64,000 nt of DNA from Microbispora sp. NBC_01189 (GTDB lineage Bacteria > Actinomycetota > Actinomycetes > Streptosporangiales > Streptosporangiaceae). Every line of letters starts with the position of its first letter. Positions within the stretch are counted from its first letter, which is position 1. The stretch is from assembly GCF_036010665.1 (NCBI RefSeq), contig NZ_CP108581.1, positions 1,456,001 to 1,520,000 on the forward strand. Direction: 5' to 3'. Of the stretch, positions 2,556-24,585 are shown one piece after another. A program made the translations under genes and the position numbers. Under the pieces are notes generated by a model that saw only the letters and a program-made list of their open reading frames with translations, was not told the DNA's origin and ran no database searches.

Positions 2556-3362
2556 TCAGGCGTCGCGGCGCAGGCGCCAGCCGTGGTCGACCGGGCCGAT
2601 GCCGGCGCCCAGCGGGAACCCGTGGGCGATCGCGCCGGTGACGTACTCCTTGGCGAGCCGTACGGCGCCGGGGACGTCCTCGCCGAGGGCGAGGTAGGAG
2701 GCGATGGCGGAGGCGAGCGTGCAGCCGGTGCCGTGGGTGTGCCGGTTGTCGAGCCGCTCGGCGGTGAAGCGGTGCTCGGCCGATCCGTCGGTCAGCAGGT
2801 CGACCGGCTCGCCGGGCAGGTGCCCGCCCTTGATGAGCGCCCACTTCGGGCCGAGCGCCAGCACCGCCTCGGCGGCGCGGGGCAGGTCGGCCTCGTCCTC
2901 CACCTTGACGTCCGTGAGCTGCTCGACCTCCCACAGGTTGGGGGTGACCACGGTCGCCGTGGACAGCAGCGCCCTCCTGACGGTCTCCACGGCCTCCGGC
3001 CGGAGCAGGCTGTCGCCGTGCTTGGACACGCCGACCGGGTCCACCACGACGGGAACGGTGACGCCCGCGAGGACCTCGGCGACGGTCTCCACCAGCGCAG
3101 GCGAGGCCAGCATGCCCGTTTTGATCGCCTGGGCTCCGATGTCGCCGAGGACCGAGTCGAGCTGGGCGCGCACCGCCTCCGGGGGCAGCTCCCAGTAGCC
3201 CTGGACGCCCAGCGAGTTCTGCGCCGTCACCGCGGCGATCACGCTCATGCCGTGTACGCCGAGGGCCAGCATGGTCTTCAGGTCGGCCTGGATGCCGGCT
3301 CCGCCGCCGGAGTCGGAGCCCGCGATCGTCAGAACACGTGGTGGGGTGGTCATAGCGTCCAT
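2556..3362 (-). CDS. thiD: Hydroxymethylpyrimidine / HMP-phosphate kinase
   Basis: 268 residues, the usual ThiD size. [16 protein letters not shown] near the N-terminus and [15 protein letters not shown] near the C-terminus are the substrate-binding start and anion-hole/ATP-site motifs of the ribokinase-like ThiD family. It makes HMP pyrophosphate for thiamine synthesis in the cytosol. ATG at 3362 is preferred because AGGGGAC lies about eight bases upstream; ATG 3353 is a possible alternative three codons in. thiL, the last kinase of the pathway, lies 1.5 kb upstream on the same strand, separated by an unrelated membrane protein. No TPP riboswitch is visible upstream. Confidence 0.95.
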
Positions 3363-10506: not shown

Positions 10507-12030
10507 CTAGTGCGCCGCCTCCGCGTTCTCGCGGGCGTGCCTGGGCAGGAGGAACGCCACCGCGAACGTCACGACGAGCATCCCGGCGACGACCCAGAGG
10601 GTGACCTTCATGGCCTGGTCGAAGCTCGCGGCGGTGGGCAGGTCGCCGAGCAGGTCGAAGAAGATCGTGCCGAGCAGGGCCACGCCGAAGGCATTGCCCA
10701 GTTGCTGCACGGCGGTCAGCGTGCCGGAGGCCGAGCCGGTCTCGTGCTCCTCCACCCCGGCGAGGACGATGTCGAAGAACGGCGACATCAGCATGCCCAT
10801 GCCGACCCCGCTGACCAGCAGGGCGGGGACGAGCTGCCAGGGGTTCATCTGCGTCCCGGTGATGGTCAGCGTGAGCAGGACGCCGAGGACCCCCAGCGTC
10901 ATGACGAGCGTGCCGAGGTGCAGCAGCCTGCGCCCGAGCTTCTGCAGCGGCTGGGCGACCCCGAAGCCGACGATCATTCCGGCGGACCACGGGACCATCA
11001 CCAGGCCGGCCTTCAGCGCGGAGTAGTGCAGCCCGATCTGGCAGTAGAGGTTGAAGGCCAGCATGAACCCGGCCATGCCGGAGAAGAACACCATCCCGGT
11101 GAACAGGCCGCCGGTGAAGGCGCGCTTGCGGAACAGGCTCGGCACGATCAGCGGGTCACCGCCCCCGCGGCTCCTGCGGGACTGGAACCAGCCGAAGGCG
11201 GCGAAGACCACCGCCGAGGCGGCCAGCATGACGAAGGCCCACACCGGCCAGTCGTGCTCACGCCCCTGCACGAGGGGATAGATCACCAGGAAGCCGCCCA
11301 CGGAGGCGAGCACGACTCCGCCCAGGTCGAGCCGCAGCGGGTGCGGCGACCGCGACTCGGGCAGGAAGCGCAGACCGGCGGCCAGCGCGGCGAGGCCGAG
11401 CGGCAGGTTGACCAGGAAGATCATGCGCCAGCCGGTGCCCCAGTAGTCGGCCTCCACGAGCCAGCCGGCCAGGATCGGGCCGCCCACGGCGGACAGGCCC
11501 ATGACCGGCCCGAACATGCCGAACGCCTTGCCCATCTCGGCCGGCGGGAACATCTCCTTGATCATGCCGAGTCCCTGGGGCAGCATGACCGCGCCGAACA
11601 GGCCCTGCACCACCCGGGCCCCGATGAGCATCTCGGGCGACTGCGCGACGGCGCACAGCAGGGAGCCCGCGGTGAAGCCGGCGGCCCCGATCAGGAACAT
11701 CCGCTTGCGCCCGAAGATGTCTCCCAGCCGGCCGCCGGTGATCAGGCCCACGGCCATGGCCAGCGTGTAGGCGGCGCCCAGCCACTGGATGATCGACTCC
11801 GACCCGCCCAGGTCGGCGCGCATGCTCGGCGCCGCGATGTTGGTGACCATCGCGTCGAGCAGATCCATGATCTCCGCCGCGAGGATCACGAAGAGCGCGG
11901 CCCAGCGCCACCGGTACGCGGGTGCCTCGCCCACGGGCGCCTCGTCCACCGGCGCCTCGTCCACCGGCGCCTCGTCCACCGGCGCCTCGTCCACCGGCTC
12001 GGACGCCGCGGTGCTGGCAGTGTTCGCCAT
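10507..12030 (-). CDS. MFS drug efflux transporter, DHA2 (14-helix) type
   Basis: 507 residues. After an acidic N-terminal tail of five PVDEA-like units, hydrophobic segments and the motifs LDAMVTNIAAPSM (start of helix 1), GGRLGDIFGRKRMF (motif A) and GPILAGWLVE (motif C) mark the EmrB/QacA family of proton-driven exporters. ATG 12030 is preferred to ATG 12033 because AGGAGG is then four bases upstream instead of one. Divergent from a TetR regulator whose likely operators overlap this promoter, so expression is probably induced by a TetR ligand; the substrate is unknown. Confidence 0.9.
   Translation of the reverse strand: MANTASTAASEPVDEAPVDEAPVDEAPVDEAPVGEAPAYRWRWAALFVILAAEIMDLLDAMVTNIAAPSMRADLGGSESIIQWLGAAYTLAMAVGLITGGRLGDIFGRKRMFLIGAAGFTAGSLLCAVAQSPEMLIGARVVQGLFGAVMLPQGLGMIKEMFPPAEMGKAFGMFGPVMGLSAVGGPILAGWLVEADYWGTGWRMIFLVNLPLGLAALAAGLRFLPESRSPHPLRLDLGGVVLASVGGFLVIYPLVQGREHDWPVWAFVMLAASAVVFAAFGWFQSRRSRGGGDPLIVPSLFRKRAFTGGLFTGMVFFSGMAGFMLAFNLYCQIGLHYSALKAGLVMVPWSAGMIVGFGVAQPLQKLGRRLLHLGTLVMTLGVLGVLLTLTITGTQMNPWQLVPALLVSGVGMGMLMSPFFDIVLAGVEEHETGSASGTLTAVQQLGNAFGVALLGTIFFDLLGDLPTAASFDQAMKVTLWVVAGMLVVTFAVAFLLPRHARENAEAAH
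11921..11995. repeat. 15-bp tandem repeat encoding PVDEA
   Basis: GGCGCCTCGTCCACC is repeated at 11936, 11951, 11966 and 11981, preceded by one diverged unit at 11921. It encodes the acidic cytoplasmic tail of the MFS transporter. Confidence 0.9.
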
Positions 12031-12048
12031 CATCCCTCCTTGAGTGTT

Positions 12049-12160: not shown

Positions 12161-12227
12161 TTGGAGAGCGGTGTTCGCTGAGCGGAAGCGGTGTTCACTA
12201 CCATGAGCGTGAGAGTGGAGGTCCTTG

Positions 12228-12977
12228 TTGACGCAGCCGGACATGCCGACGCCGCCGTGGGAGCGCCCGCCGAAGCGGCGCAGGCCGCCAAGGGTGCCTC
12301 TGAGCCGGGAGCGCATCGTGGACGCCGCGTACGCCGTCCTCGACCGGGAGGGTTACGACGGGCTGAGCATGCGCCAGGTGGCCGCGGAGCTGCACGTCGC
12401 CGTCTCGGCGCTCTACGTCCACGTACGTGACAAGGACGAGCTGCTGCGGCTGATGTACAACCGGCTGTTCGACGGCTACGAGCTGCCCGAGCCCGATCCC
12501 GAGCACTGGCGGGAGCAGGTCAGGGACTTCGCCCGCCAGGGACGCAAGCACCTGCTCGGTCACCGGGACATGGCGAAGATCTCGATGGGCCACGTCCCCT
12601 TCACCCCGGAGCTGCTCCCCCACGTCGAGCGGTTGCTGGCGATGTTCACCACCGCCGGGCTGCCGAAGAAGGTCGCCGCCATCGCGGGTGACCTGCTGTC
12701 GACGTACATGGACGGGTTCGTGCTGGAGGAGAGCCTCTGGCGGGACCGCTATCCGGAGAACGGCGGAGCGGCCCCGGAGAAGATGCGCGAGGAGATCCAG
12801 AGCTACTTCGCCTCGCTCCCGCAGGACCGGTTCCCGAACCTGGTGGCGCTCGCCGACGTCATGGTGGACGAGTCGAACGACTACCGGTTCGAACTCGGCC
12901 TGGAGATCATCCTGCGTGGCATCGCCTCCTACGTCGGCGAGCCGGACCCCGGGAACGACCACCCGGAGACCGGCTGA
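12228..12977 (+). CDS. TetR-family transcriptional regulator
   Basis: 249 residues. The helix-turn-helix LSMRQVAAELHVAVSALYVHV (TetR N-domain) is followed by an all-helical ligand domain of the TetR_C_1 type (HVPFTPELLPHVERLLAMF). A strongly basic-proline segment (PPKRRRPPRVPLSRERI) precedes the DNA-binding domain. There is no ATG with a good site; TTG 12228 sits six bases after GGAGG and TTG 12225 three bases after. Divergent from the MFS exporter, so probably its repressor and self-regulating. Confidence 0.88.
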   Translation: MTQPDMPTPPWERPPKRRRPPRVPLSRERIVDAAYAVLDREGYDGLSMRQVAAELHVAVSALYVHVRDKDELLRLMYNRLFDGYELPEPDPEHWREQVRDFARQGRKHLLGHRDMAKISMGHVPFTPELLPHVERLLAMFTTAGLPKKVAAIAGDLLSTYMDGFVLEESLWRDRYPENGGAAPEKMREEIQSYFASLPQDRFPNLVALADVMVDESNDYRFELGLEIILRGIASYVGEPDPGNDHPETG

Positions 12978-13071: not shown

Positions 13072-13084
13072 TAGGCTGACGACG
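13072..13084 (+). promoter_or_regulatory. Leaderless promoter -10 of the cold-shock-like gene
   Basis: TAGGCT at 13072-13077, then six bases, then the GTG start at 13084. This is the spacing expected when transcription begins at the start codon; no ribosome-binding site is present. Confidence 0.6.
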
Positions 13085-13332
13085 TGCGGGTGACGGTGCA
13101 GGCGACGGTGCGGAGCTTCGATCCGGAGAGCCGGTCGGGCGTGGTCTTCCTCGACGACGGCACCCGCGTCCCCTTCGACGGCGAGGCGTTCGACGCCGGA
13201 CCGCTGCGACACCTGCGCCCCGGCCAGCGGGTCGCCCTCGTCATGGCGGACGGCCGGGTCTCCTACCTCACGCTGTCGACCTTCCCCGTGCCCGGAGAAG
13301 GCGACCTCTTGGTTGACACCGGGCGGGTTTGA
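13084..13332 (+). CDS. Small cold-shock-domain-like protein
   Basis: 82 residues. VQATVRSFDPESRSGVVFLDDGTRVPFDGEAF resembles an OB-fold of the cold-shock type (strand, basic turn, SGVVFLDDG in the place of GFGFI), but the aromatic RNP1/RNP2 residues of classical CspA are mostly missing, so nucleic-acid binding is uncertain. Similar short proteins are familiar from other actinomycetes. GTG start with a leaderless promoter. The promoter of the M-box RNA overlaps its stop codon. Confidence 0.6.
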   Translation: MRVTVQATVRSFDPESRSGVVFLDDGTRVPFDGEAFDAGPLRHLRPGQRVALVMADGRVSYLTLSTFPVPGEGDLLVDTGRV

Positions 13333-13358
13333 CCGGACGCCCTGGCCAGGGGTGTACT
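13329..13358 (+). promoter_or_regulatory. Promoter of the M-box transcript
   Basis: TTGACC at 13329-13334, an 18-bp spacer and TGTACT at 13353-13358. A start near 13365 would place the 5' end exactly at the closing helix of the riboswitch. Confidence 0.6.
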
Positions 13359-13367
13359 GGAAGGACA

Positions 13368-13539
13368 GGCACCTCGTTCGGTGAGGCGTCTGCGCGGACA
13401 CAGGCCACTGACCCCCCTCGTCGAGAGACGTCCCGGGTCAGGACAGGTCTCCCCGGCTTAAGGGGTGACCCCAGGTGGCTTCCCCGTCGCGGGGATCACG
13501 CCGCGCAGTGCCAAAGCTCTGACGTGAGAGGTGTGTGCC
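13368..13539 (+). ncRNA. M-box (ykoK-type) magnesium riboswitch
   Basis: The conserved blocks of the M-box appear in order: TCGTTCGGTGAGGC at 13374, a CTGCGCGG (13390-13397) that pairs with CCGCGCAG (13501-13508), GAGAGACG at 13423, GGGTCAGGACAGG at 13435, CTTAAGG, CCAGGTGGCT, and the hallmark GTGCCAAAGCTCT at 13509 followed by GAGAGGTG. The outer helix pairs GGCACCTC (13368) with GAGGTG..GTGCC. M-boxes bind several Mg2+ ions and reduce expression at high Mg2+. No U-rich terminator follows, so the output may be Rho-dependent or translational. Downstream are two very short ORFs instead of a known Mg2+ transporter gene. Confidence 0.9.
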
Positions 13540-13603
13540 GCGCGCGACGCGGTACGGCGAGGGGCGCGGTCGTCGCCCCCACGACCCTGAGGAGGTGGTC
13601 GGG

Positions 13604-13711
13604 ATGAGTTCCGGCGGTAGTCCACAACCATTCCATCCCGTCACCTGCCCCGGCACGACGCGAGGCTCCCGCGTCGTCGAGGCGGTTTCCGCCCGCTGTC
13701 GCGCCGGGTGA
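13604..13711 (+). CDS. 35-residue ORF in the M-box leader
   Basis: ATG 13604 lies eight bases after a perfect GAGGAGG. The product starts MSSGGSPQPFHPVTCPGTTRG, contains two Cys and is neither hydrophobic nor similar to anything I recognise. It ends 48 bp before the start of the 59-residue membrane protein. It could be a translated leader that couples Mg2+ sensing to the next gene, or a small protein in its own right. Main support: the strong ribosome-binding site and its position between riboswitch and gene. Confidence 0.5.
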   Translation: MSSGGSPQPFHPVTCPGTTRGSRVVEAVSARCRAG

Positions 13712-13723
13712 CGGGTTCTCATC

Positions 13724-13743
13724 CGTGCCGGACGCCCGGCACG
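13724..13743 (+). other. Hairpin just before the small membrane protein's RBS
   Basis: CGTGCCGG, loop ACGC, CCGGCACG: a perfect 8-bp stem ending five bases before the AGGAGG of the 59-residue ORF. No U tract follows, so it is probably not a terminator; it may be part of the expression platform. Confidence 0.5.
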
Positions 13744-13759
13744 AGACAGGAGGTCCGTC

Positions 13760-13939
13760 ATGACGATCACGATTTCTGTCCCGTTCGCGCTGCCGCAGAC
13801 CCTGATCAGGACGGCTCGCGCCCTGTTCCCCGTCCTGATGCCGCTGGCTCTCGCCCTGGTGGGCGCCGACGCGGGAGCCGGCCTCGTCGTGGGGCTGGAG
13901 ATCGGGCTGCTGATCCTCCGGCACCTGCTGGGGACGTGA
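13760..13939 (+). CDS. 59-residue hydrophobic protein under M-box control
   Basis: ATG 13760 is six bases after a perfect AGGAGG (13748-13753). The sequence has an amphipathic start (FALPQTLIRTARAL), then a continuous hydrophobic stretch of about 35 residues (LFPVLMPLALALVG, then GAGLVVGLEIGLLIL) that could form one long or two short membrane helices joined by the acidic GADAGAG, ending in RHLLGT. I do not recognise the family. Position behind the magnesium riboswitch suggests synthesis at low Mg2+, like the small Mg2+-responsive membrane proteins known in enterobacteria (MgtS, MgtR); any functional parallel is inference. Confidence 0.65.
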   Translation: MTITISVPFALPQTLIRTARALFPVLMPLALALVGADAGAGLVVGLEIGLLILRHLLGT

Positions 13940-14055
13940 GAGGAACCGGGCTCCGGGCGCCCGTCGGCGGCGATGCGGTGGCGAGCGTCCGGCGGGGCCC
14001 AGAGTGGGGCGGAGTCTGTGCCCGTACCCGGCCGGCCCGGGACTCCAGGTGGCGC

Positions 14056-16167
14056 TTAGCCTGCCGGCGGCAGGCGCAGGGCGATCATGGCGATGTCGTC
14101 CTCTCCCGAGAGAGGCATGCCGGTGAGCAGTTCGTCGCAGAACCGGCCCAGGGGCGCGCGGGCGAGCGGCTCGGCGCGCCGCCGCAGCCGTTCGAGTCCG
14201 TCGCCGATGTCCTCTCCCCGCCGTTCGACGAGGCCGTCGGTGTAGAGCAGCAGGGTGCCGTCCGGCGGCAGCGGCTCCACGGCGCTGGTCCACGGCCTGC
14301 CGTGACGCAGGCCGAGGAGGGGGTTGCGCGCGTCCCGCAGGAAACGGCTCCGCCCGTCGCCGGTCACCAGCAACGGCGGCGGATGCCCGGCCACCGAGTA
14401 GGCCAGCCGCCATCCGCCCTCTTCGTCTCTCTCGACGCGGGTGAGGACGCAGGTCGCGGTGCTCTCCCGGTTCAGGGTCTCCAGGGCGGCGTTGAGCCGT
14501 CGCAGGACGTGCCCGGGAGACTCGTCGCGGTCGACGGCGAGCGCCCGCAGCATGTTCCGCACCTGGCTCATGCACACGGCCGCGGCGAGGTCGTGCCCGG
14601 CCACGTCCCCGATCACCAGGTCGAGGACGCCGCCGGACGGCACGAACGCGTCGTACCAGTCCCCGCCGATCTCCGCGGCGGTCGGGCTCGCCTGGTAGCG
14701 CGCGGCGATCTCCAGGCCGGGCACCCGGGGCGGCTCCGCCAGCAGGCTGTGCTGCAGGGCCAGCGCCACCCTCTGGTTGCGCCGGAACCGCAGAGCCTTG
14801 CTGACGGCGTCGTGCGTGTGGTCGAGCATCTCCCGCATCAACCGGACGTCGTCCGGCCCGATCGGGGGGCGGTCCCCGCAGACGCCGGTCACGACCACCG
14901 TCGCCACCTCGCCCTCGACGACGACCGGCATGATGGCCAGGCTGTGCTCCCCGGCCTCTTTGATCCACGCTGTCACGTCGTCCGCGCAGGGGAACGGCGG
15001 CCGTCCCGGCGGGAAGGTCGCCTGCAGGGGCCGGCGCTGCCGCACCGCGCGGACGAACCCGCTGTCGGCGGGGTGGTACTCCTTGCGCCGCGGCGGCAGG
15101 CTCGGCAGCCCCTCCCGTACGGCGGAGGCGACGCGCTCGGTGACGATCGACCCGGACGGCGCGCCACCCGCCTCGGGCAGCAGGTAGACGTAGCACGAGT
15201 CGGCCAGTTCCGGCACGATCACGTTGGCGAACTCCTCGCACATCTCCTCGATGTTGGAGATGTCGCTCGCGGCGGCGGCGGCGCGGTCCAGCAGCCGGCG
15301 ACGCCGGGCCTCCTGCCACTCCTGCTCGACGTCGGTGGAGGCGCCCACCCACTCCACCACCTCACCGTCCTCGTGCACGGGCACGGCCCGGTAGCGGACG
15401 TGACGGTAGCGGCCGTCGGGGGTGCGGACGCGGTAGATCTGCTCGTAGAACGAGACGGCCTGTTCGGTGGCCCTGTCCCAGGACTCCACGGCGGCCGCGC
15501 GGTCCTCGGGGTGGATGGTCCTGAACCAGCCGTCGCCGAGGCTCTCCTCCACGGTCTGTCCCGTCAGGCGGTGCCAGCCCTGGCTCATCTCCCTGGCCTC
15601 GCCGTGCGGGCCGGTCACCCACACCAGGTGCGCGTCCGCCCACACCATGCTCTGGTAGCGGCGCTGGAGGCGGCGCCACTCCTTCTCCATGACCCGGACG
15701 CGCCGGGCCGCGGCGATATGCGCCGAGACTTCCTGGACCACCGCCAGCAGACCGCTCTCCCCGCAGGTGAGGGGAACCCTGGACAGGTTCAGGCGAAAGG
15801 AGGCCTCGCGGGACGCGCCGCCGGGACCGGTCACGGTGACGACGACCTCGTCGAGGCACACCGCCTCCCCCGTCTCCAGGACGTGGCCGAGCGTGCCGGG
15901 GGAGATCCGCCGGACGAGGTCGGGGAAGACCTCCCGGACGGGCGTCCCGGCCGGCCGGTCTTCGCCAGACCGCTCGCCACACGTCCACCCGCCGTCCGGC
16001 CGCTCACCGAACATCGCGGCCAAGGCGGCGTTCGTGTAGACGAGCCGGTGGTCCTCGCCCCCGGTCACCAGAACTCCGACCGGCGCATGGTCGAACAGCT
16101 CCAGTGGAATGCGGCTGGTCTCTCGTTCGTGGCCGACGTGCACTGAATCATTCCCCCGCGGTCGCAT
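14056..16167 (-). CDS. PAS-GAF-SpoIIE (PP2C) sensor phosphatase
   Basis: 703 residues. Domains in order: PAS near 25-140 (HAPVGVLVTGGEDHRLVYTNAA), a second PAS/PAC near 185-290 (GWHRLTGQTVEESLGDGWF, then RYRHVRYRAVP), a GAF-like region near 310-450, and a SpoIIE-type PP2C domain (EIGGDWYDAFV, VIGDVAGHDLAAA, LLLYTDGLVE, DDIAMIAL) with the metal-binding Asp residues intact. Such proteins dephosphorylate anti-sigma antagonists. No anti-sigma or antagonist gene is adjacent. ATG 16167 has no clear ribosome-binding site; GTG 16143, eight bases after GGGGGA, may be the true start. Two PAS domains suggest light, redox or ligand sensing. Confidence 0.9.
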   Translation of the reverse strand: MRPRGNDSVHVGHERETSRIPLELFDHAPVGVLVTGGEDHRLVYTNAALAAMFGERPDGGWTCGERSGEDRPAGTPVREVFPDLVRRISPGTLGHVLETGEAVCLDEVVVTVTGPGGASREASFRLNLSRVPLTCGESGLLAVVQEVSAHIAAARRVRVMEKEWRRLQRRYQSMVWADAHLVWVTGPHGEAREMSQGWHRLTGQTVEESLGDGWFRTIHPEDRAAAVESWDRATEQAVSFYEQIYRVRTPDGRYRHVRYRAVPVHEDGEVVEWVGASTDVEQEWQEARRRRLLDRAAAAASDISNIEEMCEEFANVIVPELADSCYVYLLPEAGGAPSGSIVTERVASAVREGLPSLPPRRKEYHPADSGFVRAVRQRRPLQATFPPGRPPFPCADDVTAWIKEAGEHSLAIMPVVVEGEVATVVVTGVCGDRPPIGPDDVRLMREMLDHTHDAVSKALRFRRNQRVALALQHSLLAEPPRVPGLEIAARYQASPTAAEIGGDWYDAFVPSGGVLDLVIGDVAGHDLAAAVCMSQVRNMLRALAVDRDESPGHVLRRLNAALETLNRESTATCVLTRVERDEEGGWRLAYSVAGHPPPLLVTGDGRSRFLRDARNPLLGLRHGRPWTSAVEPLPPDGTLLLYTDGLVERRGEDIGDGLERLRRRAEPLARAPLGRFCDELLTGMPLSGEDDIAMIALRLPPAG

Positions 16168-16289
16168 CAAGCACGCGCCGTCGGGCCCTGGCGGGCGCGC
16201 GCGATTCGCTTACCTGATGATTGCACAGGTTTGCGCAGGTCAGGCCAGAGATGCGAGCTCTTTACCCCGTCATGACAGGCACAAGACGA

Positions 16290-24311: not shown

Positions 24312-24384
24312 TAGCCCCGACCGGATTCGAACCGGCGCTACCGCCTTGAGAGGGCGGCGTCCTAGGCCACTAGACGACGGAGCC
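24312..24384 (-). tRNA. tRNA-Glu (CTC), copy A
   Basis: Folds as a cloverleaf: acceptor GGCTCCG / CGGGGCT with a G-U end pair, anticodon stem CCGCC / GGCGG, loop CTCTCAA with anticodon CTC, T arm GGTTCGAAT. CCA is not encoded. D and anticodon arms are identical to copy B; acceptor and T stems differ. Confidence 0.93.
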
Positions 24385-24397
24385 GAGTGCAGTGAAG

Positions 24398-24470
24398 TAG
24401 TCCCGAGCGGATTCGAACCGCCGTTACCGCCTTGAGAGGGCGGCGTCCTAGGCCACTAGACGACGGGACC
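24398..24470 (-). tRNA. tRNA-Glu (CTC), copy B
   Basis: Acceptor GGTCCCG / CGGGACT, anticodon loop CTCTCAA (CTC), T arm GGTTCGAAT. Lies 13 bp upstream of copy A on the same strand. Confidence 0.93.
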
Positions 24471-24513
24471 ATGCACTGCGCTGCTTCCAGCAGAATCCCT
24501 TGGGGGGATCCAG

Positions 24514-24585
24514 CTGGGGTACCAGGACTCGAACCTAGACTAACGGAGCCAGAATCCGTCGGGCTGCCAATTACCCCATACCCCA
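24514..24585 (-). tRNA. tRNA-Gln (CTG)
   Basis: Acceptor TGGGGTA / TACCCCA with discriminator G; anticodon stem ACGGA / TCCGT, loop TTCTGGC, anticodon CTG; T arm GGTTCGAGT. The U1-A72 pair is the identity element that lets GatCAB select tRNA-Gln. First gene of the three-tRNA transcript. Confidence 0.93.

Follow-up and report, generated by a model that had tools for sequence, protein, structure and literature searches.

An M-box riboswitch followed by a uORF2-type leader ORF and a small membrane protein gene in Microbispora and its relatives

The M-box (ykoK leader, Rfam RF00380) is a magnesium riboswitch that nearly always precedes putative Mg2+ transport genes (PMC4072509, available part). 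In Mycobacterium tuberculosis, the M-boxes of pe20 and rv1535 are followed by a small open reading frame, uORF2 (Rv1805A at pe20), with a conserved N-terminus and a proline at position 7, and this peptide is termed mycobacteria-specific in the accessible portion of the paper describing it (PMC12810186). The same portion reports a translational platform on uORF2 plus Rho at the pe20 M-box, and premature Rho-dependent ends in both leaders. For Salmonella mgtCBR, excerpts of the published account (PMC3641672) place the end of the leader ORF mgtP in a stem-loop arm, with the ribosome-binding site (RBS) and start of mgtC held in the neighbouring stem-loop, and mgtP translation favouring mgtC expression.

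I analyzed a locus of Microbispora sp. NBC_01189 that lies within a stretch of 64,000 nucleotides (hereafter referred to as the window). It resembles other RF00380 members in its full-model aptamer match far over the cut-off, but differs from them in that the downstream ORFs are of 35 and 59 codons, with no transporter. It shares with the pe20 and rv1535 leaders a strong Shine-Dalgarno sequence (SD2) after the aptamer, a proline at position 7 and a further gene downstream, as well as an MSS..SP start, as in mycobacteria-type loci; unlike these leaders, it lies outside mycobacteria, and its next gene encodes a 59-residue membrane protein. A search of titles and abstracts found no M-box-controlled small membrane protein in actinomycetes. 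What is new here is that a leader ORF would be the first target, that such ORFs extend beyond mycobacteria and carry an AGT signature, that a hairpin is predicted between the two ORFs, and that the two-ORF unit outlasts the aptamer.

The M-box and the ORFs behind it

The original prediction, made from the letters of the window, placed an M-box at 13368-13539, behind a fitting promoter and ahead of a 59-codon ORF with an AGGAGG. A covariance-model scan (cmscan, Rfam 15) confirmed the aptamer, two bases away from that span, with a match far above the gathering score of 44 (E 1.4e-31) that covers the full model (1-169 of 169) with no non-standard pair marked; the same match was recovered when the whole window was scanned. 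The promoter was borne out as well, since TTGACC-18-TGTACT occurs once in the window and in 0/100 shuffles, for a pattern derived from this very site. A generic sigma-70 scan, with stricter demands, detected no promoter, and no intrinsic terminator was detected within 13250-14100. The 3' strand of P1 overlaps an SD-like GAGAGG, the counterpart of what is termed SD1 in the M. tuberculosis leaders (PMC12810186, accessible portion). The 59-codon ORF and its AGGAGG are both present (Table 1).

Table 1. Features of the M-box locus, in positions of the window.
Feature	Position	Strand	Basis
Promoter: -35 TTGACC, 18-base spacer, -10 TGTACT	13329..13358	+	sequence pattern
M-box (ykoK) magnesium riboswitch aptamer	13366..13537	+	RF00380, 136.8 bits
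P1 closing helix, 3' strand GAGGTG	13528..13533	+	pairs with CACCUC 13370-13375; structure line of the Rfam alignment
Shine-Dalgarno GAGGAGG (SD2) of leader ORF	13589..13595	+	sequence
35-codon leader ORF, uORF2 / Rv1805A kind, MSSGGSPQPFHPVTCPGTTRGSRVVEAVSARCRAG	13604..13711	+	SD-led; position matches other M-box loci
Predicted hairpin: uORF stop region GUGACGG pairs with SD/start region CCGUCAU of 59-codon gene	13708..13762	+	minimum free energy (MFE)
Shine-Dalgarno AGGAGG of 59-codon gene, within hairpin	13748..13753	+	sequence
59-residue small hydrophobic (membrane) protein, MTITI..., two predicted helices	13760..13939	+	homologues, in-frame selection

The 59-residue gene had been described as the first well-served gene behind the aptamer. 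This does not hold, because a 35-codon ORF led by its own GAGGAGG intervenes between the two. The observation underlying the prediction is right; its interpretation is partly supported, correct on the central point but incomplete as to the parts of the unit.

No Mg2+ transporter lies behind this M-box: the two small ORFs are followed by a convergent gene (14056-16170) on the opposite strand. The M-box is also the only one in the 7,371,534-base genome (E <= 0.001). Searches for CorA, Nramp and MgtE identified three CorA-family genes, one Nramp gene and no MgtE match in this genome; with the one M-box at this locus, none of the CorA and Nramp genes has an M-box ahead of it. With a sole M-box, and the next gene on the other strand, the M-box therefore seems to have no output in this organism beyond the two small ORFs.

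Some neighbouring features were also recorded. An 82-residue ORF (13084-13332, + strand) ends on the -35 box of the M-box promoter; it has Pfam matches below cut-off only, and similar sequence was seen by eye upstream in two other genomes, G006 (L005) and G011 (L019). Further upstream, the ORF at 10507-12033 (- strand, 508 residues) presumably encodes an MFS-type transporter and the adjacent divergent ORF at 12225-12977 presumably a TetR-like protein; the 508-residue ORF has an N-terminus with VDEAP repeats. Three consecutive tRNA genes are found at 24312-24585 (- strand).

Leader ORFs at actinomycete M-boxes

The sequence GAGGAGGTG at SD2 is invariant across 12 aligned Microbispora genomes. 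I then counted as leader ORFs those with an SD and 14-70 codons whose start lies 70-185 nt past a fixed point near the aptamer end; three overlapping ORFs were excluded by hand. Such an ORF is present at the matching place in 45 of 48 actinomycete M-box loci (16 from set A1, 7 more from A3 and 25 from A8, with 16 further M-box matches left out), and missing in L016, L055 (runs of N) and L065, where no start could be used. Encoded downstream of the leaders are, among others, Nramp (L085), CorA (L004) and MgtE (L009) transporters, Rv1535-like small proteins and the 59-residue family.

The peptide of the window starts MSSGGSP, with its proline at position 7, and those of mycobacteria-type loci MSSGDSP or MSSSDSP; an M-x(3-7)-SP start is found in 24 of the 45 leader ORFs. 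The genomes of f6/g28 are taken here to be mycobacteria-type because they carry several M-boxes along with PPE- and Rv1535-like ORFs. Leader ORFs occur at non-mycobacterial M-box loci, so mycobacteria are not the only bacteria with this leader peptide; judged by these predicted ORFs, the uORF2 type extends beyond them. Amino-acid-level selection on uORF2 was not detected in the ten of 12 Microbispora compared (ratio 0.88, with 78/200 shuffles as low), L018 and L027 having been left out for their early-ending ORFs; length changes stay in frame among these ten. A possible uORF1, with a GTG after the P1 strand and running in frame into uORF2, is found in 4/6 Microbispora M-box leaders and is not treated as a conserved element.

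The leader ORFs have an unusual codon composition at their start. AGT, a rare serine codon, makes up 89/140 serine codons at codons 2-10 of the 45 leader ORFs and 3/113 later, and 43 of the 45 have at least one AGT within codons 2-11. These AGT are in frame (89, versus 1 out of frame) and at varying codons from 2 to 10, and therefore argue for favoured codons over a fixed DNA motif. The early excess is seen per family in f1 (34/55), f6 (43/64) and f19 (6/9), and in one Streptomyces (4/4); it is absent in f21 (2/8 early versus 3/15 later). In the 31 ORFs left when those sharing their first six residues are collapsed, AGT accounts for 54/88 early and 3/76 late serine codons, with a Fisher p of 4e-16 that is a guide only, as related sequences remain in the collapsed set. 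Among 33 control genes of the window, picked by length and codon-position G+C, AGT accounts for 2/20 serine codons at codons 2-10 (p 3e-5 versus the collapsed set). CGA shows a similar pattern in the leader ORFs, with 21/52 arginine codons at codons 2-14 versus 10/88 later. Part of this AGT/CGA excess may be the general A/T-rich gene start: A/T-ending codons make up 14.5% of codons 2-10 and 4.6% of later ones in window genes, and 67-80% at codons 2, 4, 5, 6 and 8 in leader ORFs. In the accessible portion of the M. tuberculosis leader paper, rare codons are brought up for uORF1 alone, with no mention of serine or AGT (PMC12810186).

I also compared the folds of 16 + 7 M-box leaders when the P1 3' strand was included and when it was removed. 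In the window, SD2 becomes less accessible without this strand (0.53 to 0.23), but the five further Microbispora M-box leaders disagree (0.32/0.25, 0.50/0.50, 0.12/0.22, 0.66/0.65 and 0.45/0.30), and among seven mycobacteria-type leaders the accessibility falls in five, by 0.02 to 0.31. Because the change is inconsistent, no platform linking the aptamer to the uORF is claimed.

The 59-residue protein with and without an aptamer

The description of the downstream product as a hydrophobic protein of unknown family was corroborated: its GRAVY is 1.36, and neither the window protein nor the homologue at L030 matched any Pfam or NCBIfam family at E up to 1. AlphaFold predicts helices at residues 13-36 and 38-57 (pLDDT 80), with a pTM of 0.38, and the arrangement of the helices is therefore uncertain. 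Two possible relationships were discarded. Three PDB sequences, each from the same human receptor, matched at E 0.39-0.85 and were taken as chance; and hhalign of the family (A4) against an Rv1535-like protein (L046) gave a probability of 0.2% over 3 columns.

Across 12 Microbispora, pN/pS is 0.54 in the frame of the gene, versus 1.22 and 1.58 in the other frames, and 3/200 codon-position shuffles were as low as observed. From this comparison, the 59-codon gene is very probably real and under purifying selection. Invariant positions in a 20-row alignment of the family are M1, T2, I3, I5, R20, P24, G35, G39 and L46; a second, overlapping alignment of 17 rows has M1, T2, I3, I5, P8, R20 and P24.

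Homologues are present in 12 of 15 genomes of the genus, own genome included, and also in Sphaerisporangium, Acrocarpospora, Actinomadura, Actinoallomurus and one Streptomyces (S. colonosanans). At E <= 0.01, 24 of 297 family genomes have a match, the weakest being long ORFs and probably chance. Larger ORFs at E 0.0008-0.008, including a 478-residue ORF of the own genome and an MFS-like one of 576 residues, were rejected as chance or unsupported. A class-wide search of 394 genomes drawn evenly gave full-length matches in 5 Microbispora genomes only. The Streptomyces copy, like further copies in Sphaerisporangium, came from a scan with an exact 20-base DNA pattern around the start of the gene, which gave 26 stretches; five (L080, L091, L092, L094 and L098) were left out of inspection, two (L087 and L088) proved unrelated on inspection, and two more (L086 and L100), on contigs as long as those of L021 and L018, hold a partial gene only.

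The protein had been predicted to be riboswitch-controlled, a prediction that its genomic setting supports in part. It is conserved directly behind M-boxes in several genera, namely Microbispora, Sphaerisporangium, Acrocarpospora and Actinomadura, plus a Streptosporangiaceae MAG. However, it is not tied to the aptamer. Among 25 homologous loci, an M-box lies directly upstream in 12 (six Microbispora, L033, L034, L039, L081, L084 and L079) and is absent in 10 (six Microbispora, the three Actinoallomurus loci L029, L030 and L031, and L085 of Streptomyces), while L032, L041 and L043 end too close to the gene to judge. As 10 of the 25 have no M-box directly upstream, the protein would be usable outside Mg2+ control. 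No M-box turned up in nine aptamer-less loci even with permissive Rfam settings; L030 shows aptamer-like pieces, by eye only.

Within Microbispora, the M-box is present in 6/15 genomes and the 59-residue gene in 12/15. The six gene-bearing genomes without an aptamer keep both ORFs behind a promoter of the same kind, with M. oryzae differing most. Five of the six retain the equivalent TTGACC-18-TCTACT, and the bases after it, GGCTCTGACG(T/C)G or a near variant, resemble the aptamer 3' end AAGCTCTGACGTG. Read as a deletion scar, this remnant points to the aptamer having been lost in these five, rather than gained late. The five group together, with weak support (62).

Elsewhere, the M-box can also follow the gene. 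At L041, in an Actinoallomurus MAG (G089) with three copies of the 59-residue gene (L041, L043 and L030), an M-box at 404-579 lies ~170 nt after the gene and has its own leader ORF. At L085, in S. colonosanans, an M-box ~360 nt after the gene, with a small ORF between, heads an Nramp transporter. In an Actinomycetes MAG, L079 (5064-5530; also represented as L016) is a decaying copy, with an M-box of 103.6 bits, a 59-residue frame broken off early and no leader ORF found. In Acrocarpospora catenulata (L077), a c-di-AMP riboswitch (RF00379, 74.4 bits) was observed at 2602-2781 (- strand), ~1 kb upstream of the M-box unit.

A hairpin between the ORFs, a proposed unit and its alternatives

The predicted hairpin has an MFE of -31.7 kcal/mol and holds both the SD and the start of the 59-codon gene, with the uORF stop TGA (13709-13711) within its 5' arm. 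The edge of this region over shuffles is modest (13700-13775, z -1.89, with 7/200 as good), and the mean pairing probability of GGAGG in the SD is 0.75. In 90-nt stretches, the hairpin is in the minimum-energy fold of 10 of 12 Microbispora, L018 and L023 folding otherwise. Over a shorter stretch, folded for 21 of the 25 loci, the start codon was paired (probability > 0.5) in 18, by a different local helix in L039; the hairpin does not hold it in L034, L081 and L085. Across 21 sequences, 84.2% of cells are paired, versus 26.7-56.9% for slid versions, and 12 cells carry double changes, which 0/500 shuffles reach; the counts of double-changed pairs and of additional pair types are unexceptional (reached by 58/500 and 125/500 shuffles). 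From uORF stop to start of the 59-codon gene, the distance is 48 nt in 9 of the 12 Microbispora and 44 in one; in the two with 99 and 111 nt, the uORF ends some 45-60 nt before the hairpin. Outside the genus, by eye, L031 alone has the stop within the arm and L029 has it nearby; in L030, L033 and L034 it comes well ahead of the arm. A stop in the 5' arm would correspond to a geometry of translational coupling, in which the ribosome finishing the leader would open the hairpin.

The aptamer, the promoter pattern, the two conserved ORFs, the selection on the 59 codons and the absence of the aptamer in some relatives are observed. On this basis I propose, as a slightly favoured reading, a Mg2+-responsive two-gene unit in which low Mg2+ would lead to uORF translation, and this to expression of the membrane protein. 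A transcript starting at the M-box would be made from the single promoter. With ample Mg2+, the aptamer would close P1 and the leader would be held off; with scarce Mg2+, P1 would open and the 35-codon leader ORF would be translated, a direction of switching borrowed from known M-boxes. Ribosomes ending the leader ORF would stop in the 5' arm of the hairpin hiding the RBS and start of the second gene, so that its translation would turn on the 59-residue protein, perhaps by coupling. This protein would have a role in Mg2+ homeostasis, probably helping to keep or take up Mg2+ through action in the membrane on an existing transporter of the CorA or Nramp type, both encoded in this genome, rather than being a transporter alone.

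MgtR of Salmonella is itself a small membrane peptide. The proposed unit is like mgtCBR in that it includes a small peptide under Mg2+ control, a leader ORF ending in a stem-loop arm and leader translation favouring the downstream gene, as far as the excerpts of that account go (PMC3641672). It is unlike mgtCBR in that the sensor here is an M-box, and the leader carries the AGT/CGA signature, not consecutive prolines; no sequence relation between the two is shown.

It is also possible, although less likely than not, that the M-box acts on transcription through Rho-dependent termination, with both genes following in a read-through operon without coupling. The premature Rho-dependent ends in both M. 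tuberculosis M-box leaders (PMC12810186, accessible portion) are in line with this, as are the lack of an intrinsic terminator at 13250-14100 and the moderate support for the hairpin; the conserved stop-to-start distance in 9/12 Microbispora and the paired start in 18/21 loci argue for coupling instead. The roles of the two products could also be reversed, the leader peptide being the true regulated product or sensor and the 59-residue protein a passenger, with the AGT/CGA start sensing translation speed and two inputs, Mg2+ and decoding. In mgtL and mgtP, translation speed is sensed via proline codons. I regard this reversal as rather doubtful. A uORF2-type ORF is indeed present at 45/48 M-box loci whatever the gene downstream, and early AGT is in excess in the leader ORFs, in frame and separately in three families, compared with window genes, and CGA is frequent among early arginine codons; however, A/T-ending early codons may only keep the initiation region unstructured, the AGT enrichment is missing in f21, and the 59-codon gene is under its own selection and therefore not a mere passenger.

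A third alternative, which I consider unlikely, is that the 59-residue protein is unrelated to Mg2+, with for example a toxic or envelope-stress function, and sits behind an old M-box that is being lost. This would fit with the aptamer being absent in 6/12 gene-bearing Microbispora, at three Actinoallomurus loci and upstream of the Streptomyces copy, and with the protein having no known family. Against it, M-box, uORF2 and 59-residue gene occur together in several genera, with differing upstream genes even within Microbispora, and two loci have an M-box after the gene, one of them heading an Nramp transporter. The Mg2+-responsive two-gene unit remains my preferred reading. A broader and tentative generalization is that actinomycete M-boxes might generally have two inputs, with the aptamer reading Mg2+ and the AGT/CGA leader peptide the decoding speed, and in Streptosporangiaceae-type bacteria drive a hitherto undescribed membrane family of 56-64 residues as sole M-box output.

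For this bacterium, these observations mean that the M-box appears to serve nothing besides the two small ORFs, and that a family of small membrane proteins without Pfam or NCBIfam match probably joins the Mg2+ response. The leader peptide thought to be mycobacterial is now wider, with a codon signature that can be tested, and harmless soil species such as Microbispora and Streptomyces may serve as models for a mechanism so far studied around pathogen genes. Relatives with and without the aptamer would provide a natural series for comparison.
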